From Armatimonas rosea (GTDB lineage: Bacteria; Armatimonadota; Armatimonadia; Armatimonadales; Armatimonadaceae), in NCBI RefSeq assembly GCF_014202505.1, contig NZ_JACHGW010000004.1, positions 62,001-126,000 of the forward strand: a stretch of 64,000 bases of DNA, in the 5' to 3' direction. Under the pieces are notes generated by a model. The model did no database searches. It was not told the DNA's origin and was given only the letters and a program-made list of their open reading frames with translations. The translations under genes and the position numbers were made by a program. This document shows, one piece after another, positions 39,414-64,000 of the stretch. The stretch's first letter is position 1. Every line of letters starts with the position of its first letter.

Positions 39414-39485
39414 CTCCCCCGACTGGATTCGAACCAGTGACCCTTCGGTTAACAGCCGAATGCTCTACCGCTGAGCTACAAGGGA
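39414..39485 (-). tRNA. tRNA-Asn (GTT)
   Basis: 72 nt, minus strand. Acceptor TCCCTTG pairs with CGGGGGA (three G-T wobbles counted through the stem); D arm GCTC/GAGC; anticodon stem TTCGG/CCGAA with loop CTGTTAA, anticodon GTT; T arm ACTGG/CCAGT with loop TTCGAAT. The 3' CCA is not encoded. Confidence 0.95.
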
Positions 39486-54555: not shown

Positions 54556-54588
54556 TTGACAACGCAAAAATTAGCGATAGCATAAAAT
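54556..54588 (+). promoter_or_regulatory. Candidate promoter of the kdp leader
   Basis: TTGACA (54556-54561) with either TAGCAT (54578-54583, 16-bp spacer) or TAAAAT (54583-54588, 21-bp spacer) as -10. Transcription would begin near 54590-54596, just before the structured leader. Confidence 0.5.
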
Positions 54589-54589
54589 C

Positions 54590-54717
54590 CAACTACATAA
54601 CGCTACGGACAACGAAGGTTGCCGAATCGAAGGGGCTACTGAGAATTCAGAAGCCAAGTCGTGAGGGAGGCCAGAGTTTTCGCTGAATCAATCAGCGATC
54701 ACTCTGGCCTCTTTTTT
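54590..54717 (+). promoter_or_regulatory. Candidate riboswitch with terminator, kdp leader copy
   Basis: Conserved core GGTTGCCGAATCGAAGGGGC (54617-54636) is shared with the leader at 63173 at 19 of 20 positions. 5' of it CAAC can pair with GTTG across a tetraloop; 3' of it a variable hairpin (GGCT-a-CTGA...TCAG-a-AGCC) leads to GTCGTGAGGGAGGCCAGAG, also conserved. GAGGCCAGAGT (54667-54677) then pairs with ACTCTGGCCTC (54701-54711), with an inner CGCTGA/TCAGCG hairpin and TTTTTT: an intrinsic terminator whose 5' arm lies in the conserved block. This is typical riboswitch design. The 5' core resembles ydaO, but other ydaO blocks are missing. Confidence 0.7.
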
Positions 54718-54758: not shown

Positions 54759-54839
54759 ATGGATCTTGTCTATGTGCTGCTGACCCTTGGCGCGTTCGCG
54801 CTCTGTGGCCTCTACATCCGGGGCTGCGAGAGGCTCTGA
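54759..54839 (+). CDS. Kdp-operon 26-aa membrane microprotein
   Basis: Encodes 26 residues, MDLVYVLLTLGAFALCGL then YIRGCERL, with one membrane helix and a charged end. It lies between the terminator and kdpF with 1 nt to the kdpF ATG, so it is translated on the same mRNA. It resembles KdpF in size but not in sequence. Similar short frames are known upstream of kdpF in other genomes to my recollection, but are seldom annotated. Confidence 0.55.
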   Translation: MDLVYVLLTLGAFALCGLYIRGCERL

Positions 54840-54840
54840 G

Positions 54841-54927
54841 ATGCTTGATTATCTGATCACCGGCGGGATCGCAGTGCTCCTGCTGGGCTATCTGCTCTAT
54901 GCACTGCTACGACCGGAGAAGTTCTAA
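54841..54927 (+). CDS. kdpF: K+-transporting ATPase small subunit KdpF
   Basis: 28 aa: a hydrophobic helix (ITGGIAVLLLGYLLYALL) ending RPEKF, the conserved KdpF tail. It stabilises the KdpABC complex in the inner membrane. The TAA stop overlaps the kdpA ATG (TAATGA). Confidence 0.85.
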   Translation: MLDYLITGGIAVLLLGYLLYALLRPEKF

Positions 54928-56591
54928 TGACACCCCATGGAGCGCTTCAGATAGCGCTGTACTGCCTGGTCCTGCTCGCTCTCACAAAGCCCGTCGGTGC
55001 CTACATGGCGCGGGTATTCTCGGGCGAGGTGACTTGGCTCAAGCCGGTGGAGAGGCGCTGGTACCAGCTACTGGGCGTGCGCGACGATGAGGAGATGCCG
55101 TGGCAGACCTATAGCCAAGCGTTGCTTGTGTTCAGCGCGATAGGCATGCTTTTCACCTACGCCCTGCTACGCCTGCAAGGCCAACTGCCCCTGAACCCGC
55201 AGGGATTCTCGGGGAAGGAGATGACACCCGATCTCGCCTTCAACACCGCCGCGAGCTTTACGACCAACACCAACTGGCAGAGCTACGTGCCGGAGGCGAC
55301 GGTCTCCTACTTCTCCAATATGGTCGCGCTGGCGATCCACAACTGGATGAGCGCTGCGGCAGGGATCGCGGTTGCGCTAGCGCTGGTGCGAGGTTTTGCA
55401 CGCCGCCAGACGGTAGGGCTGGGCTCGTTCTGGGTGGACGTGACCCGAGCGACTCTCTGTGTGCTCTTGCCTGGGTGCTTTGTCTACGCGCTGTTTCTGG
55501 TCAGCCAGGGCGTGCCACAAAACTTCGATGCCTACACAAAAGTGACCACGCTGGAGGGCACGGCGCAGACACTAGCACAGGGCCCGGTGGCATCGCAGGA
55601 GTGCATCAAGATGCTGGGGACCAACGGGGGCGGCTTCTTCAACGCCAACTCGGCGCATCCCTACGAGAACCCGACTCCGCTCACCAACTTTGTCCAGATG
55701 CTCTCGATCTTTCTGATCCCGGCAGGCCTCACCTACACCTTTGGCAGGCTTGTCGGCAACACCCGGCAGGGCTGGGCGCTCTTTGGGGCGATGGCGGCAC
55801 TCTTTCTTGTGGGCGTCGTGGCCTGCTACGGAGCAGAGGCGGCGGGAAACAACCTAGAGGGGAAAGAGACGCGCTTTGGGATTGTCGGCTCGGCGCTCTT
55901 TGCCGTGGTCACCACCGATGCATCGTGTGGGGCGGTCAATGCGATGCACGACTCCTTTACGCCGCTGGGAGGCCTCGTGCCCTTGGTCAATATCCAGCTC
56001 GGCGAGGTGGTCTTTGGTGGAGTCGGGGCGGGGCTCTATGGGATGCTGATGTTCGCGGTGCTTGCGGTGTTTATCGCGGGACTGATGGTGGGACGCACCC
56101 CCGAGTACCTGGGCAAGAAGATCGAGCAGTATGAGGTCAAGATGGCGATGCTGGCGACCTTGGTGCTCGCCGCGTCCACATTGCTCTTTACCGCAGTGGG
56201 CGTGAGTGTCTCGGCGCTCTCTAGCACGACCAACAACGCCGGGGCACACGGCCTCAGTGAAGTTCTCTATGCCTACACATCGGCGACCGGCAACAATGGC
56301 TCGGCGTTTGCGGGGCTGACGGCAAACTCCCCCGCGTGGAACGTGACCTTGGGAGTCGCGATGCTCGCCGGGCGCTTTTTGATGATTGTCCCCCTGCTTG
56401 CGATGGCGGGAAGCCTTGCGAAAAAGAAGCTCACGCCCGCAACCTCGGGGACATTTCCTACCGATGGTGGGACATTCACGGCGCTCTTGATCGGAGTGGT
56501 GGTGATTGTCGGTGCTCTCACCTATCTCCCGGCACTTGCCCTGGGGCCAATCGTGGAGCACTTCCAGTGGCAGGCAGGAAAGGCGTTTTAG
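54927..56591 (+). CDS. kdpA: K+-transporting ATPase, channel subunit KdpA
   Basis: 554 aa, the usual length. Superfamily-of-K+-transporter fold with four selectivity-type loops (TNTNWQSY, GTNGGGFFNANSAHPYENPTP, SCGAVNAM, TGNNGSAFAG). Binds and passes K+; energised by KdpB. First large gene of a K+-limitation operon preceded by the candidate riboswitch. Confidence 0.96.
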   Translation: MTPHGALQIALYCLVLLALTKPVGAYMARVFSGEVTWLKPVERRWYQLLGVRDDEEMPWQTYSQALLVFSAIGMLFTYALLRLQGQLPLNPQGFSGKEMTPDLAFNTAASFTTNTNWQSYVPEATVSYFSNMVALAIHNWMSAAAGIAVALALVRGFARRQTVGLGSFWVDVTRATLCVLLPGCFVYALFLVSQGVPQNFDAYTKVTTLEGTAQTLAQGPVASQECIKMLGTNGGGFFNANSAHPYENPTPLTNFVQMLSIFLIPAGLTYTFGRLVGNTRQGWALFGAMAALFLVGVVACYGAEAAGNNLEGKETRFGIVGSALFAVVTTDASCGAVNAMHDSFTPLGGLVPLVNIQLGEVVFGGVGAGLYGMLMFAVLAVFIAGLMVGRTPEYLGKKIEQYEVKMAMLATLVLAASTLLFTAVGVSVSALSSTTNNAGAHGLSEVLYAYTSATGNNGSAFAGLTANSPAWNVTLGVAMLAGRFLMIVPLLAMAGSLAKKKLTPATSGTFPTDGGTFTALLIGVVVIVGALTYLPALALGPIVEHFQWQAGKAF

Positions 56592-59208: not shown

Positions 59209-60888
59209 ATGCAAAACCTCCGACGCCAGCTCTTGCTTAGCCACTTGCTCCTGATTGGGCTGATGCTTCTGCTACTCGCGGGCGGCGTCCTGCGCTTCTT
59301 CCATCTCGGGCGCTCCATCGACCGGGTCTTGGATGCCAATGTCAAGAGTGTCCTGCTCATGCAGCAGACCAAAGACGCGCTCAGTGCCCAGCCCGTGCGC
59401 CTCCCCGAGGCGGCGTTTGCGATCCAGCAAGAGCTCGGGAACATCACCGAGCCCGGTGAGGGGGAGCTGGCAGAGGCACTGAGGGACGGTTTTGACGCGC
59501 TCCGAACGGGCACCGGCGATCGAAAGCAGGTTAGTGCCAAGGCGCAGGAGATCCTGGAGCTCAACCTCGCCGCGATGCGCCGCGCCGATGCCGAGGCCAA
59601 GCACGAGGCGCGACAGTCCGCGCTCCTCGGGGCCGCGGCGACTGTTGGCGCGGCGGTGCTCGCCGTGCTCTTGGCCCGTCGGGCTGTTCAAGGGGCGCTC
59701 CTGCCGCTGGTCTCGCTCGCTCGCCAGGCCGAGGAGGTTGGCGAGGGACGGCTCAACCAGCGGATCGAGCTCACCCGCAGCGATGAGATCGGCACCCTGG
59801 CCCGGGCCTTCAACGGCATGTCCGAGAAGCTCGCCGAGGCACGGGCGGCGCTGGAGGCACGACTGATCCGCGCCGAGCGCATGAACGATGCCGCCCTGGA
59901 GAGCCTCTACGATCCCGTGATTGTCACCGATGCGGCCGGGCGGCTGGTCCACCTCAATCGTGCGGCCGAGAGCCTACTGGGGCAACCCCTCGGCACGCGG
60001 CTCGGCGAGGCGCGGCTGGCACAGGCCGTGGACACCGCGCTCCAGGAGGGCAAGACGGTCGCCCCCGACGATAGCTCGGCGCTGGTGGGGCTCAAGGACA
60101 AGACCTTCCGCCTCCGTGTCAGCCCGATGCGCACGGAGAGCGAGCCCCTCGGCGCAGTGATCGTCCTGGAGGATATCACCTCGCTTCAGGAAGTAGACCG
60201 CCTCAAGACCGAGTTCATCAGTGTGGCCTCGCACGAGCTCCGAACCCCCGTGACCAGCCTGCTCCTCTCGGTCCAGCTCCTCCAGGAGGGAGCGGTTGGG
60301 ACCCTCACGGCACCCCAGAGCCAGCTGATCCAAGCCCAGCGCGACGATCTTGAGCGCCTGGAGCGGCTCCTGCGAGAACTGCTGGACCTGACCAAGCTAG
60401 AGAGCGGTGCGAGCCCACCCCAGCTGGAGGCAGTTGCCGCACGCTCCCTCTGCACGGCGGCGCTTGACGGGATTCGTGCGGAGGCGGGCGCACAAGGAGT
60501 CTCCCTGGCGGTTGGGACACTAACCGAGACCTTGGTTTGGGCAGACACAGGGCAGCTCACGCGGGTTCTCACCAACCTCCTGGGCAACGCCATCCGGCAC
60601 ACGCCCCGCGGCGGCACCGTGACCCTCGAGGCACGTGAGCTGCCATCGGAAGTGATTGTTACGGTCTCGGACACGGGGAGCGGGATTCCCCAGGAGTATC
60701 TGAGCGAGATCTTCGGGCGCTTTACCCAGGTGCCCGGAGCCACCCGCGGCGGGGCAGGACTTGGCCTCTCCCTCGCCAAAGCCATTGTCGAGGCGCACGG
60801 CGGCACGATCGCCGCCCAGAGCGCTGGTGTCGGCAAGGGAAGTGCCTTTATCTTCACCTTGCCCCGAACAGAGAAAACACGAGAGTAA
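59209..60888 (+). CDS. Sensor histidine kinase of the kdp locus
   Basis: 559 aa. TM1 about 8-28, short periplasmic loop, TM2 about 137-157, HAMP about 157-212, PAS about 230-325, HisKA with SHELRTPV (His342), HATPase with N box NLLGNAIRHTP, DTGSGIP and GLGLSLAKAIV. It carries no KdpD/Usp domain; these are on a separate protein two genes downstream. Together they could form a split KdpD. Input ligand unknown. Followed by its response regulator after 5 nt. Confidence 0.92.
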   Translation: MQNLRRQLLLSHLLLIGLMLLLLAGGVLRFFHLGRSIDRVLDANVKSVLLMQQTKDALSAQPVRLPEAAFAIQQELGNITEPGEGELAEALRDGFDALRTGTGDRKQVSAKAQEILELNLAAMRRADAEAKHEARQSALLGAAATVGAAVLAVLLARRAVQGALLPLVSLARQAEEVGEGRLNQRIELTRSDEIGTLARAFNGMSEKLAEARAALEARLIRAERMNDAALESLYDPVIVTDAAGRLVHLNRAAESLLGQPLGTRLGEARLAQAVDTALQEGKTVAPDDSSALVGLKDKTFRLRVSPMRTESEPLGAVIVLEDITSLQEVDRLKTEFISVASHELRTPVTSLLLSVQLLQEGAVGTLTAPQSQLIQAQRDDLERLERLLRELLDLTKLESGASPPQLEAVAARSLCTAALDGIRAEAGAQGVSLAVGTLTETLVWADTGQLTRVLTNLLGNAIRHTPRGGTVTLEARELPSEVIVTVSDTGSGIPQEYLSEIFGRFTQVPGATRGGAGLGLSLAKAIVEAHGGTIAAQSAGVGKGSAFIFTLPRTEKTRE

Positions 60889-60893
60889 ACATC

Positions 60894-61658
60894 ATGGCAA
60901 AGCTACTAATTATCGACGATGAGAGCAATATCCGGCTGATGCTTCGGCTCGCCCTCGAGCATGTGGGGCACACGGTTGAGCAGGCGGGCGACGGCATCGA
61001 GGGCCTAGAAAAGTTCGGGCAGGGCGCGGGCTGGGACCTGGTCCTGCTCGATCACCGCATGCCGGGAATGGAGGGAATCGATGTCTTGCGCGAGCTGCGC
61101 CGACGAAATCCCCACGCGCGGGTGGTGATGATCACGGCCTTTGGGACGGTCGATCTGGCATCGGAGGCGATCCGGGCAGGCGCGACCGACTTCCTGCGAA
61201 AGCCCTTCACGATCGAGGTGCTGCGCGAGGCGGTCGAGGCGGCCCTGAGCGAGCGCCCCCACCTGCCCCATATCGCCAATGCCGCCCCCCAGCCCAGCCT
61301 CTCGTTTGAGCGCCTCGGGATCAACGGCTACCGCCTCGCCAGCCTCCCCGGCCTGGAGCACCACCCCGATCAGAGCGTCACCAAGGTCTTCAGTGTCCAG
61401 AAAACCGAGGGGGCGGGTCGTGCGTGCCGGGTGACTCTCACGGCGGCGGCGGTGGAGCAGGTTCGCCAGCACGCGCTTGGAAGCCCCCTCCCTGGCGGTG
61501 ATACGTTTTGGGAGGCGCTCTGTGGCGAGGCGCTCGCCAACTACCTCTGGCAGAATGTCACCCTCCCCACGGGCGGCCAGCTACTGGTGGAGGAGCTGAC
61601 ATCGGGGCTGCGCCGCTGGGTCGATGCAGTGGTTCAGACAGCGGGAGCGGTGGCCTAA
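60894..61658 (+). CDS. Response regulator with unrecognised C-terminal output domain
   Basis: 254 aa. Receiver domain 1-120: Asp8, Asp9, phosphoacceptor Asp53, Thr81 and Lys103. Residues 120-254 show no OmpR, NarL, AAA+ or HD-GYP pattern; the text (FSVQKTEGAGRACRVTLTAAAVEQV, then DTFWEALCGEALANYLWQNV, LLVEELTSGLRRW) is mixed alpha/beta. KdpE normally has an OmpR-type DNA-binding domain, so the output is unusual: a new domain, protein-protein output, or degenerate form. Between the kinase and the KdpD-like gene. Confidence 0.88.
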   Translation: MAKLLIIDDESNIRLMLRLALEHVGHTVEQAGDGIEGLEKFGQGAGWDLVLLDHRMPGMEGIDVLRELRRRNPHARVVMITAFGTVDLASEAIRAGATDFLRKPFTIEVLREAVEAALSERPHLPHIANAAPQPSLSFERLGINGYRLASLPGLEHHPDQSVTKVFSVQKTEGAGRACRVTLTAAAVEQVRQHALGSPLPGGDTFWEALCGEALANYLWQNVTLPTGGQLLVEELTSGLRRWVDAVVQTAGAVA

Positions 61659-61661
61659 GCG

Positions 61662-62774
61662 ATGGACCTGGGTGTGGGAAGCACGCCGCGCGGGCGGCAC
61701 AAGATCTTTCTGGGCTTCGCGGCAGGTGTCGGCAAGACCTGCGAGATGCTCTCGGAGGCCAACCGGCGGCGGGAGCGCGGCCAGGAGGTGGTGATTGGCT
61801 ACCTGGAGACCCACGGCCGCGCTGGCACCGAGGCGCTGATCGGGGAGCTTCCCTGTGTCCCGCGCCGCCAGCAGGCCTACAAGGGGAGCACCTTTGAGGA
61901 GATGGACACGGAGGCGATCCTGGCCCGCCCACCGCAGTGCGTTCTCGTCGATGAGCTGGCCCATACCAATGTCCCCGGAAGCCCCCGCGCCAAGCGCTGG
62001 CAAGATGTGGAGGTGCTCCTCGCGGCAGGAATCAATGTCCTCTCGACCCTCAATGTCCAGCACCTGGAGAGCCTCAACGACACGGTCTTGGAGATCACGG
62101 GAGTGCGCGTCCGGGAGACCGTCCCCGACCACGTCCTACGCGATGCCGACGAGGTCCAGATGATCGATATCACGCCCCGTGCGCTGGTCAACCGCCTGGA
62201 GCGCGGCGATATCTACAAGCCCGAGAAAGTGGCGCAGGCCCGACAGAACTGGTTTCGGGAGGGGAACCTCAATGCCCTGCGGGAGATCGCGCTCCGGGAG
62301 ATCGCGCAAGAGGTTGATGACGAGCTAGAGACCTACCGGCGCGAGCGTCGGATCGCCCAGCCCTGGGCCACCCACGACCGGATCATGGTCTGCCTCTCCC
62401 CGACCCAGTCGTCGCTGCGGATCCTGCGGCGGGGCTGGCGGATCGCCCGGCGGCTGAAAGGCGAGCTGGTGGCGGTCTATGTCGAGGCGCGGCCCCCACG
62501 GCCGCAGGAGCAAGCGATCCTCAAGGCGGACTTTGCGGTCGCCGACCAGCTCCAGATTCCGGTCGTGACCCTCCAGGGCTCGGATGTGGCGGCGGAGCTG
62601 GTGCGGTATGCTCGGGAGAAGAGTGTGACTCAGGTGGTCCTGGGGCACTCGGACCGCTCGCACTGGCAGGAGCTCCTGCGCGGCAGTATCGTCAATCGCC
62701 TGACCCGTGAGCTACGCTCCATCGACCTTCTCATCATGGCAAACAGTACACAAGCAACTCAGGAGGCGCTCTAA
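61662..62774 (+). CDS. KdpD sensor half (KdpD domain + Usp domain), no kinase
   Basis: 370 aa. N-terminal KdpD domain: Walker A GFAAGVGKT (18-26), VDELAHTN Walker B, PGSPRAKRWQDV and VNRLERGDIYKPEK. Residues about 225-370 are a Usp domain (RIMVCLSPTQSS, then VTQVVLGHSDRSHWQELLRGS). The four membrane helices, HisKA and HATPase of a full KdpD are absent. In S. aureus the KdpD Usp domain binds c-di-AMP; whether this one does cannot be read. It probably modulates the separate kinase encoded two genes upstream. Three bases after the receiver gene. Confidence 0.92.
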   Translation: MDLGVGSTPRGRHKIFLGFAAGVGKTCEMLSEANRRRERGQEVVIGYLETHGRAGTEALIGELPCVPRRQQAYKGSTFEEMDTEAILARPPQCVLVDELAHTNVPGSPRAKRWQDVEVLLAAGINVLSTLNVQHLESLNDTVLEITGVRVRETVPDHVLRDADEVQMIDITPRALVNRLERGDIYKPEKVAQARQNWFREGNLNALREIALREIAQEVDDELETYRRERRIAQPWATHDRIMVCLSPTQSSLRILRRGWRIARRLKGELVAVYVEARPPRPQEQAILKADFAVADQLQIPVVTLQGSDVAAELVRYAREKSVTQVVLGHSDRSHWQELLRGSIVNRLTRELRSIDLLIMANSTQATQEAL

Positions 62775-62776
62775 CC

Positions 62777-63151
62777 ATGCCCAAGACCAAAGGCGAGCTG
62801 GAGTCAGAAGCGGCCAGCGCGACTGTCAAGTTTCAGCGTGAGCAGCAGGGCCGTGGCCCCACCGATGTGCGCGCGACCCTGGTCGGGGAGCTGCTCCTGG
62901 TGCGCTCCAGCGGGATCTTCACCCCCACCGAGGCGCATCTGGCAGTCTCCGACGAGGGCCGCAAGCTGATCAAGTCCGCCCGGATCGAGCTGCGGAGCAT
63001 CAACCACGGTGAGATCGAGGCGATCCTCTCCGACCTCGCGCGGAGCGTCGTGGTGCGCAGCTACTACGACCTCAATGTCGAGGCCGCCGAGCAGGTCGAG
63101 GTCTATATCTTCGCGGAGAACATAGAAAAAAGACTGCTTGCACCCCACTGA
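62777..63151 (+). CDS. MpsC-family (DUF2294) protein
   Basis: 124 aa. Matches the DUF2294/MpsC family: EQQGRGPTDVRATLVGELLLV, SGIFTPTEAHLAVSDEGRKL and terminal AENIEKRL. In S. aureus MpsABC is a bicarbonate/cation system, but stand-alone MpsC-type proteins have no clear role. Here it lies 2 nt after the KdpD-like gene and closes the operon, so a role in K+ or membrane-potential control is plausible. Confidence 0.8.
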   Translation: MPKTKGELESEAASATVKFQREQQGRGPTDVRATLVGELLLVRSSGIFTPTEAHLAVSDEGRKLIKSARIELRSINHGEIEAILSDLARSVVVRSYYDLNVEAAEQVEVYIFAENIEKRLLAPH

Positions 63152-63172: not shown

Positions 63173-63325
63173 CATAGCAACTAAATAATGCTCGCGCAAC
63201 CTCAGGTTGCCGAAACGAAGGGGCACGGACACCGTGTCTTGTCGCGACGGAGGCCAAAGAAGCGTGGTTGAGCCGGAAAGCGTTTGTCTTTCCGACTCCC
63301 ACCTTTTTTGGCCTCCGTTTTTTTT
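63173..63325 (+). promoter_or_regulatory. Candidate riboswitch with terminator, KimA copy
   Basis: Core GGTTGCCGAAACGAAGGGGC (63205-63224) differs from the kdp copy at one base. GCAAC/GTTGC hairpin 5' of it, variable hairpin CACGG/CCGTG 3' of it, then GTCGCGACGGAGGCCAAAG, conserved. CGGAGGCCAAA (63248-63258) pairs with TTTGGCCTCCG (63307-63317), inner stem GGAAAG/CTTTCC, then eight T. The loop insert differs fully from the kdp copy while the stem position is kept. This supports selection on structure. Confidence 0.7.
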
Positions 63326-63341
63326 GCTCTGGAACAAATAC

Positions 63342-64000
63342 ATGACTGGAAACTCGCAACCGCCCGTGGGCTTCGCTCGCCGACTCCTCCTGGGCGCTCC
63401 CCTCTCCTCAGACCACGCGGAGCACACACTGCTTCGTAAGCTGGTCGCCCTCCCTGTCTTCGCCTCCGATGCGATCTCGTCGGTGGCGTATGCATCGCAG
63501 CAGATTATCCTCGCCCTGGGTGGCGCTGGCCTCTGGATGGCAGGCCAGAGCGCGACCTACGGCCACTACACGCTCCTGATCACCGGGCTGATTGTCTTGC
63601 TCCTCGGAATTGTGGTGATGAGCTACTGGCAGACAGTCTTTGCCTACCCGAGCGGCGGCGGGAGCTACATCGTGAGCAAGGAGAACCTTGGCACGATGCC
63701 GGGCCTGATCGCCGCCGCCGCGCTGCTGATCGACTATGTTCTTACGGTCTCGGTCTCGATCGCGGCGGGGATTCAGAACCTCAAGGACGTCCCTCTCTTC
63801 GCCCACGCCCATATCAGCGAGCACTTGGTTCTCTACTGCCTGCTGGCCATTGGGGTGCTGACCTACGCCAACCTGCGCGGGCTGAAGGAGTCGGGGACGG
63901 TGTTTGCGCCGCCGACCTACGCCTTTGTTGGCCTCTGCTATCTCATGATCTTTCTGGGAATCGCGGGCCCGTTTCTCGGCTGGCAGTTCCACCCAGAGTA
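63342..64000 (+). CDS. KimA-like APC-family K+ permease, 3' end off window
   Basis: 219 residues visible, open to the right edge. N-terminus with LLLGAPLSSDHAEHTLLRKLVALPVFASDAISSVAYA, the hallmark of KimA/YdaO-type APC transporters (LP-FSSDAISSVAY), then hydrophobic helices and YPSGGGSYIVSKENLG. In B. subtilis KimA imports K+ and is controlled by a c-di-AMP riboswitch. The candidate riboswitch directly upstream and the kdp operon before it support a K+ role. A few amino-acid permeases share this N-terminus, so substrate is inference. Confidence 0.85.
   Translation, partial: MTGNSQPPVGFARRLLLGAPLSSDHAEHTLLRKLVALPVFASDAISSVAYASQQIILALGGAGLWMAGQSATYGHYTLLITGLIVLLLGIVVMSYWQTVFAYPSGGGSYIVSKENLGTMPGLIAAAALLIDYVLTVSVSIAAGIQNLKDVPLFAHAHISEHLVLYCLLAIGVLTYANLRGLKESGTVFAPPTYAFVGLCYLMIFLGIAGPFLGWQFHPE

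Follow-up and report, generated by a model that had tools for sequence, protein, structure and literature searches.

Covarying leader RNAs that overlap intrinsic terminators ahead of potassium-import genes in Armatimonadota

In the RAT site of the BglG/LicT type, a hairpin interrupted by internal loops shares its 3' strand with the 5' arm of a terminator. In Bacillus, the c-di-AMP (ydaO, RF00379) riboswitch controls kdpFABC and kimA, and its bound form promotes termination (PMC6488665). In the Na+-I riboswitch (DUF1646 motif), the overlap of aptamer and terminator stem implies an ON switch (PMC9337991). Literature searches found no K+-sensing riboswitch and no paper on a riboswitch of the Armatimonadetes, and one recent survey of motifs mentions neither kdp nor potassium in its main text. 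The leaders described here share with RF00379 their place in the 5' leader of kdp or kimA, the control by an intrinsic terminator and the link to potassium homeostasis; however, they are single hairpins that match it in neither sequence nor structure, and their conserved fold is predicted to block the terminator, whereas binding of c-di-AMP to RF00379 promotes termination. With Na+-I they have in common the small size, the connection to ion physiology, the terminator-stem overlap and the ON design, but they occur at different genes and in a different phylum. Like the RAT site they are hairpins with internal loops and a 3' strand within the 5' arm of a terminator, although sequence and loops differ and the targets are K+ importers.

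The window, a 64,000-nucleotide stretch of the Armatimonas rosea genome, contains two leaders, both on the forward (+) strand like the genes they precede. Their 20-nt cores (54617-54636 and 63205-63224) are one base apart. This repeat had been noticed in a sequence-only reading of the window and is borne out, as the two copies are the only window matches to the core with up to three mismatches (0.03 expected from shuffled sequence) and the only perfect matches to the core pattern in the 6.3 Mb genome, which holds no third copy. At a fixed distance 3' of the core both leaders carry GTCG-N4-GGAGGCC, followed by a strong intrinsic terminator; the longer second block proposed earlier, GTCGyGAsGGAGGCCArAG, is found at both sites. 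Leader 1 has its own promoter, a sigma-70-like TTGACA-16-TAGCAT at 54556..54583 (consensus scan, 10 of 12 positions), and the gene upstream of it lies on the opposite strand. Its P1 5' strand, GGUUGCC, occupies 54617..54623 (assigned from family alignments A3/A4 and P1 covariation), P2 (CGA/UCG) with a 3x3 internal loop and the variable P3 hairpin 54628..54661, and the P1 3' strand, GGAGGCC, 54666..54672. The latter is also the beginning of the 5' arm of terminator 1 (54666..54717), a hairpin followed by U6 with a folding energy of -34.8 kcal/mol. Downstream are a kdpF-like small ORF (54841..54927), recognized by its sequence and its position directly 5' of kdpA, and kdpA itself (54927..56591; PF03814, E=7e-234); kdpF is the first gene in the typical kdpF-A-B-C order. 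Another small ORF, at about 54759-54839, lies ahead of the kdpF-like one.

In leader 2 the P1 5' strand GGUUGCC lies at 63205..63211, P2 with the 3x3 internal loop and the P3 hairpin at 63216..63244, and the P1 3' strand GGAGGCC, again shared with the terminator 5' arm, at 63249..63255. Terminator 2 (63249..63325) is a hairpin with U8 (-44.1 kcal/mol). The gene ahead of leader 2 encodes MpsC (62777..63151, +; PF10057), the usual upstream neighbour of the motif, with a Pfam match at 62777-63148 that scores 89.4 bits against a cut-off of 23 and is thus above the gathering score. The potassium importer gene kimA follows (63342..64000, +) and continues past the window (L034:543-2462 in the extended locus); by phmmer its product is similar over the full length to the KimA structure 6s3k (E=4.3e-126, residues 13-634). 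The two leaders and their association with potassium import are therefore confirmed as observed. In 59209-63151 KdpD is split: its sensor and USP part (61662-62774) is a protein of its own, apart from a HAMP/PAS histidine kinase (59209-60888) and a response regulator (60894-61658), and after it comes MpsC. The only Rfam gathering-score match of the window is a single tRNA gene (39414-39485, -; 69 bits).

In other genera the motif was first met by reading the DNA ahead of kdpA homologs. When 84,980 species, each represented by one genome, were scanned with a strict pattern, 31 matches resulted, of which only five are real loci, all in Armatimonadota; one of the five lies ahead of kimA in an Abditibacteriaceae genome. 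Scanning the phylum with the core pattern alone and two mismatches was dropped, since the matches were mostly chance ones in coding regions. A covariance model built from 8 sequences (R1) and run against 291 genomes of the phylum found distant members, and a second one, R2, was built from 17 sequences over 60 positions. Searching the 291 Armatimonadota genomes with R2 yielded 19 matches of at least 49 bits, then a gap down to 29 bits or less. All 19 strong matches are upstream of kdp (14), kimA (2) or a histidine kinase gene (3); two of these three histidine-kinase loci continue with a response regulator gene and kimA, and the third is cut off by the end of its contig. Another four matches (L125, L126, L136 and L149), weaker but in the right place, bring this first type of the motif (type 1) to 23, 18 of them ahead of kdp. 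Other matches at or below 30 bits include false positives in coding DNA (L123, L127, L128), and the best R2 score in 25 other genomes of mixed phyla, taken as the chance level, was 28.7 bits. No match was obtained in samples of 145 Verrucomicrobiota and 178 Actinomycetota genomes (323 in total). By these computational searches at least 20 related genomes carry the family ahead of genes for potassium import. One genome (G017, contig C31) has two kdpA genes about 4.7 kb apart (L037 and L057), with a leader before the first and no leader core seen before the second.

The conserved fold is a hairpin of three helices. P1 pairs GGUUGCC with GGAGGCC, a pairing absent from the model first proposed for the leaders, and encloses, in order, a 4x4 loop, the three-pair P2, a purine-rich 3x3 loop and the variable P3. 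The family consensus is GGUUGNC/GNAGGCC for P1 and NGA/UCN or GCA/UGC for P2, with a variable 4x4 loop; the hairpin has a conserved core of U.G U.G and G.A/A.G. In the alignment of 17 sequences P1, P2 and P3 all covary, with 12 of the 17 pairs changing on both sides. The 93% of cells that are paired is a figure biased upward, the members having been found with P1-containing models, and sister species contribute several of the sequences, which are hence not independent. None of 500 shuffles reached the observed covariation score or paired percentage, and pairing fell to 38-48% when the alignment was slid by one column. The result was upheld with 26 sequences. Compensatory changes are not favoured by the models, whose P1 letters were invariant or close to it when they were built. 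Such changes are found at P1 pair 6 (C-G in 22 sequences, A-U in 6, and G-C, G-U and U-G in single ones), pair 1 (G-C to A-U) and pair 7 (C-G to A-U); pair 4 is U.G in all. The P1 mismatch is G.A in 29 of 31 sequences and A.G in the other 2, so that it flips when changed. The GGAGG sequence was rejected as a Shine-Dalgarno site, since it changes in step with the strand it pairs with in P1 and is not followed by a start codon. The search with covariance models thus produced what had been sought from it, matches ahead of K+ genes whose stems covary in related genomes, and these leaders are a real, conserved and covarying RNA family dedicated to potassium uptake in Armatimonadota.

That the elements are no switch at all, being conserved terminators of the upstream mpsC or a repeat, might be thought from the many copies just behind mpsC. 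This is very improbable. Leader 1 contradicts it by its position, behind its own promoter and an opposite-strand gene, as does the covariation of P1; the covarying fold precedes the terminator, and the genome has no more than two copies.

Folding places strong terminators behind the members, starting at the P1 3' strand, in keeping with the earlier claim that GGAGGCC is the 5' arm of an intrinsic terminator at both window sites. When the motif is folded by itself, the predicted mean pair probability of P1 is 0.73-0.96 in 20 of 21 members; with the terminator included it falls to 0.00-0.27. In computed folds, conserved hairpin and terminator are mutually exclusive because the terminator begins with the 3' strand of P1. 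Since P1 is mostly or wholly lost when the terminator is present and the terminators begin at the P1 3' strand, the conserved fold is predicted to be an antiterminator. When P1-P3 is formed, the terminator would be blocked and RNA polymerase would read into kdpFABC or kimA; when it is not, transcription would stop at the terminator. An effector present when K+ is needed would bind and stabilise P1-P3, and the leader would then be a genetic ON switch acting directly as a riboswitch. The overlap of aptamer and terminator stems expected of an ON design is found here, as a logic common with Na+-I and not as membership of that class, and by analogy with it ON is the most likely polarity. That the family is an attenuator is well supported. 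That it is also a riboswitch, direct ion sensing included, is the more likely reading by a modest degree, and the same measured preference applies to the full proposal, in which the leaders form a new family of RNAs that attenuate potassium-uptake genes in cis and act as effector-binding, ON-type riboswitches. Should a ligand bind the leader, it would be the signal by which the cell registers a need for potassium; at 60 nt, the element is compact and readily probed.

Some features speak against this proposal. A small-molecule pocket is usually most conserved in its loop nucleotides; in the leaders their conservation is partial, and the 4x4 loop varies. Moreover, the 5' flanks of the two window copies can base-pair with the 5' strand of P1, which reduces the predicted P1 probability to 0.02-0.28. 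The CAAC/GTTG hairpin (P0) described earlier as flanking the core is present in both window copies and strong in leader 2 and in two other genomes (G208 and G027). It did not hold as an element of the family: across 21 members, the 5' flank paired no better with GGUUGCC than shuffled flanks did (Fisher p=0.15). The hairpin may be an extra layer in some copies.

The leaders had at first been considered either a shortened ydaO variant or a new class. The second alternative stands as a separate class, and the first does not. RF00379 gave no match to the leaders at the gathering score or at permissive thresholds (up to E=10), so they do not fall into that known class. No Rfam 15 family matched either leader at the gathering score or up to E=10 by more than chance, the chance matches being mostly microRNA-type models on the terminator hairpins, and six further members had no gathering-score match in Rfam. 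Nor did any Rfam 15 family place the leaders in Na+-I, the presence of DUF1646 in that library not having been separately confirmed. The family is new to Rfam and previously uncatalogued. A c-di-AMP riboswitch of a reduced or diverged ydaO class would have the same targets, kdp and kimA, as the known c-di-AMP switches (PMC6488665), and 17 of the 18 genomes with a leader have a diadenylate cyclase gene; the presence of the cyclase was set aside as a pointer, since it does not discriminate. Such a riboswitch is nevertheless improbable, as the leader core has 60 model positions in a single hairpin of 17 pairs and RF00379 has 134 (about 130 nt) in another fold. Of 101 genomes from the phylum, 27 had a match to RF00379 by its own model, none of them among the listed genomes of the family and order to which the window belongs, and kdp or kimA was downstream at none of the ten RF00379 loci examined in Armatimonadota. 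These ten (L065-L074) are near non-potassium genes, for example mechanosensitive-channel-like and mannose-6-phosphate-isomerase-like ones. An unrelated RNA fold is thus found on kdpFABC and kimA in a phylum whose examined RF00379 copies precede other genes. The sign is also wrong: a ligand stabilising P1-P3 would activate, which is opposite to c-di-AMP logic because the bound kdp switch promotes termination (PMC6488665). Of the earlier idea of ligand control through the terminator there remains a conserved, structured leader that shares sequence with the terminator; a repressing c-di-AMP or K+ ligand is weakly compatible with it. The sequence-only reading as a whole is partly supported.

Direct sensing of an alkali ion by a riboswitch, with K+ as a repressing ligand or else Na+ (or a low K+/Na+ ratio) as an activating one, is a rather unlikely reading. 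Tandem U.G pairs are plausible ion sites in general and could be so in the leader, and the association with K+ importers is exclusive. Na+-I riboswitches, furthermore, are ON switches by terminator overlap (PMC9337991). For sensible repression, however, binding of K+ would have to disfavour P1-P3.

The leader may instead be a protein-dependent antiterminator, with the P1-P3 hairpin as the RAT-like (BglG/LicT) site of a regulatory protein and MpsC as the first candidate. MpsC belongs to a widespread family without clear function. At 16 of 21 loci its gene is found no more than 160 nt upstream of the leader, and MpsC is encoded in 18 of the 19 leader genomes, found without reference to MpsC, against 20 of 272 others (Fisher p=3e-17); the sole genome of the 19 that lacks it is 64% complete, and among all leader genomes the count is 22 of 23. 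MpsC is retained also in two genomes (G043 and G055) in which one leader copy or more does not adjoin it. This co-occurrence leaves a protein effector possible and counts against direct ligand binding, but the operon is shared and linkage alone can explain much of it. MpsC also occurs without a leader in 16 genomes, and fold searches of the PDB with its predicted structure (pLDDT 96) gave nothing informative, every Z being below 8. We know of no RNA binding by MpsC. No BglG-type gene (CAT RNA-binding and PRD domains) was noticed among the neighbours examined, and relatives of MpsC were not found in viral contigs. Protein dependence is accordingly possible and less likely than not by a clear degree, somewhat ahead of alkali-ion sensing. 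If a protein binds the leader, MpsC would gain a testable role.

A sister motif, GGUUGAC-N4-GCA-AGG...NGG-UGC-N4-GUAGGCC, occurs ahead of mpsC in several genomes (16 copies in 14 genomes), which would allow autoregulation by MpsC. Copies with a terminator, mostly before mpsC, are at L117:964-1017, L126:856-907, L137:102-157, L138:120-175, L139:139-194, L149:3143-3194, L081:2883-2944 (-) and L115:1186-1239. The terminators overlap the GGCC end of the motif, and P2 varies by compensation (GCA/UGC, AUA/UAU, ACA/UGU). A common gene order is sister motif, mpsC, type-1 motif and kdpFABC. On the broadest reading the leaders would be the first natural class of riboswitch with direct readout of potassium status (K+ itself or its balance with Na+), in two paralogous forms per operon, one before mpsC and one before the importer; this broader proposal is doubtful, slightly more so than alkali-ion sensing as such. 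In one genome (L115, G027) the sister motif is in tandem, about 300 nt upstream of the type-1 leader before kdp. A strong sister-motif match with a terminator has no recognisable gene behind it (L159, G017:C309), and another copy (L164:813-867, G053) lies before a decayed KdpD/USP-like remnant.
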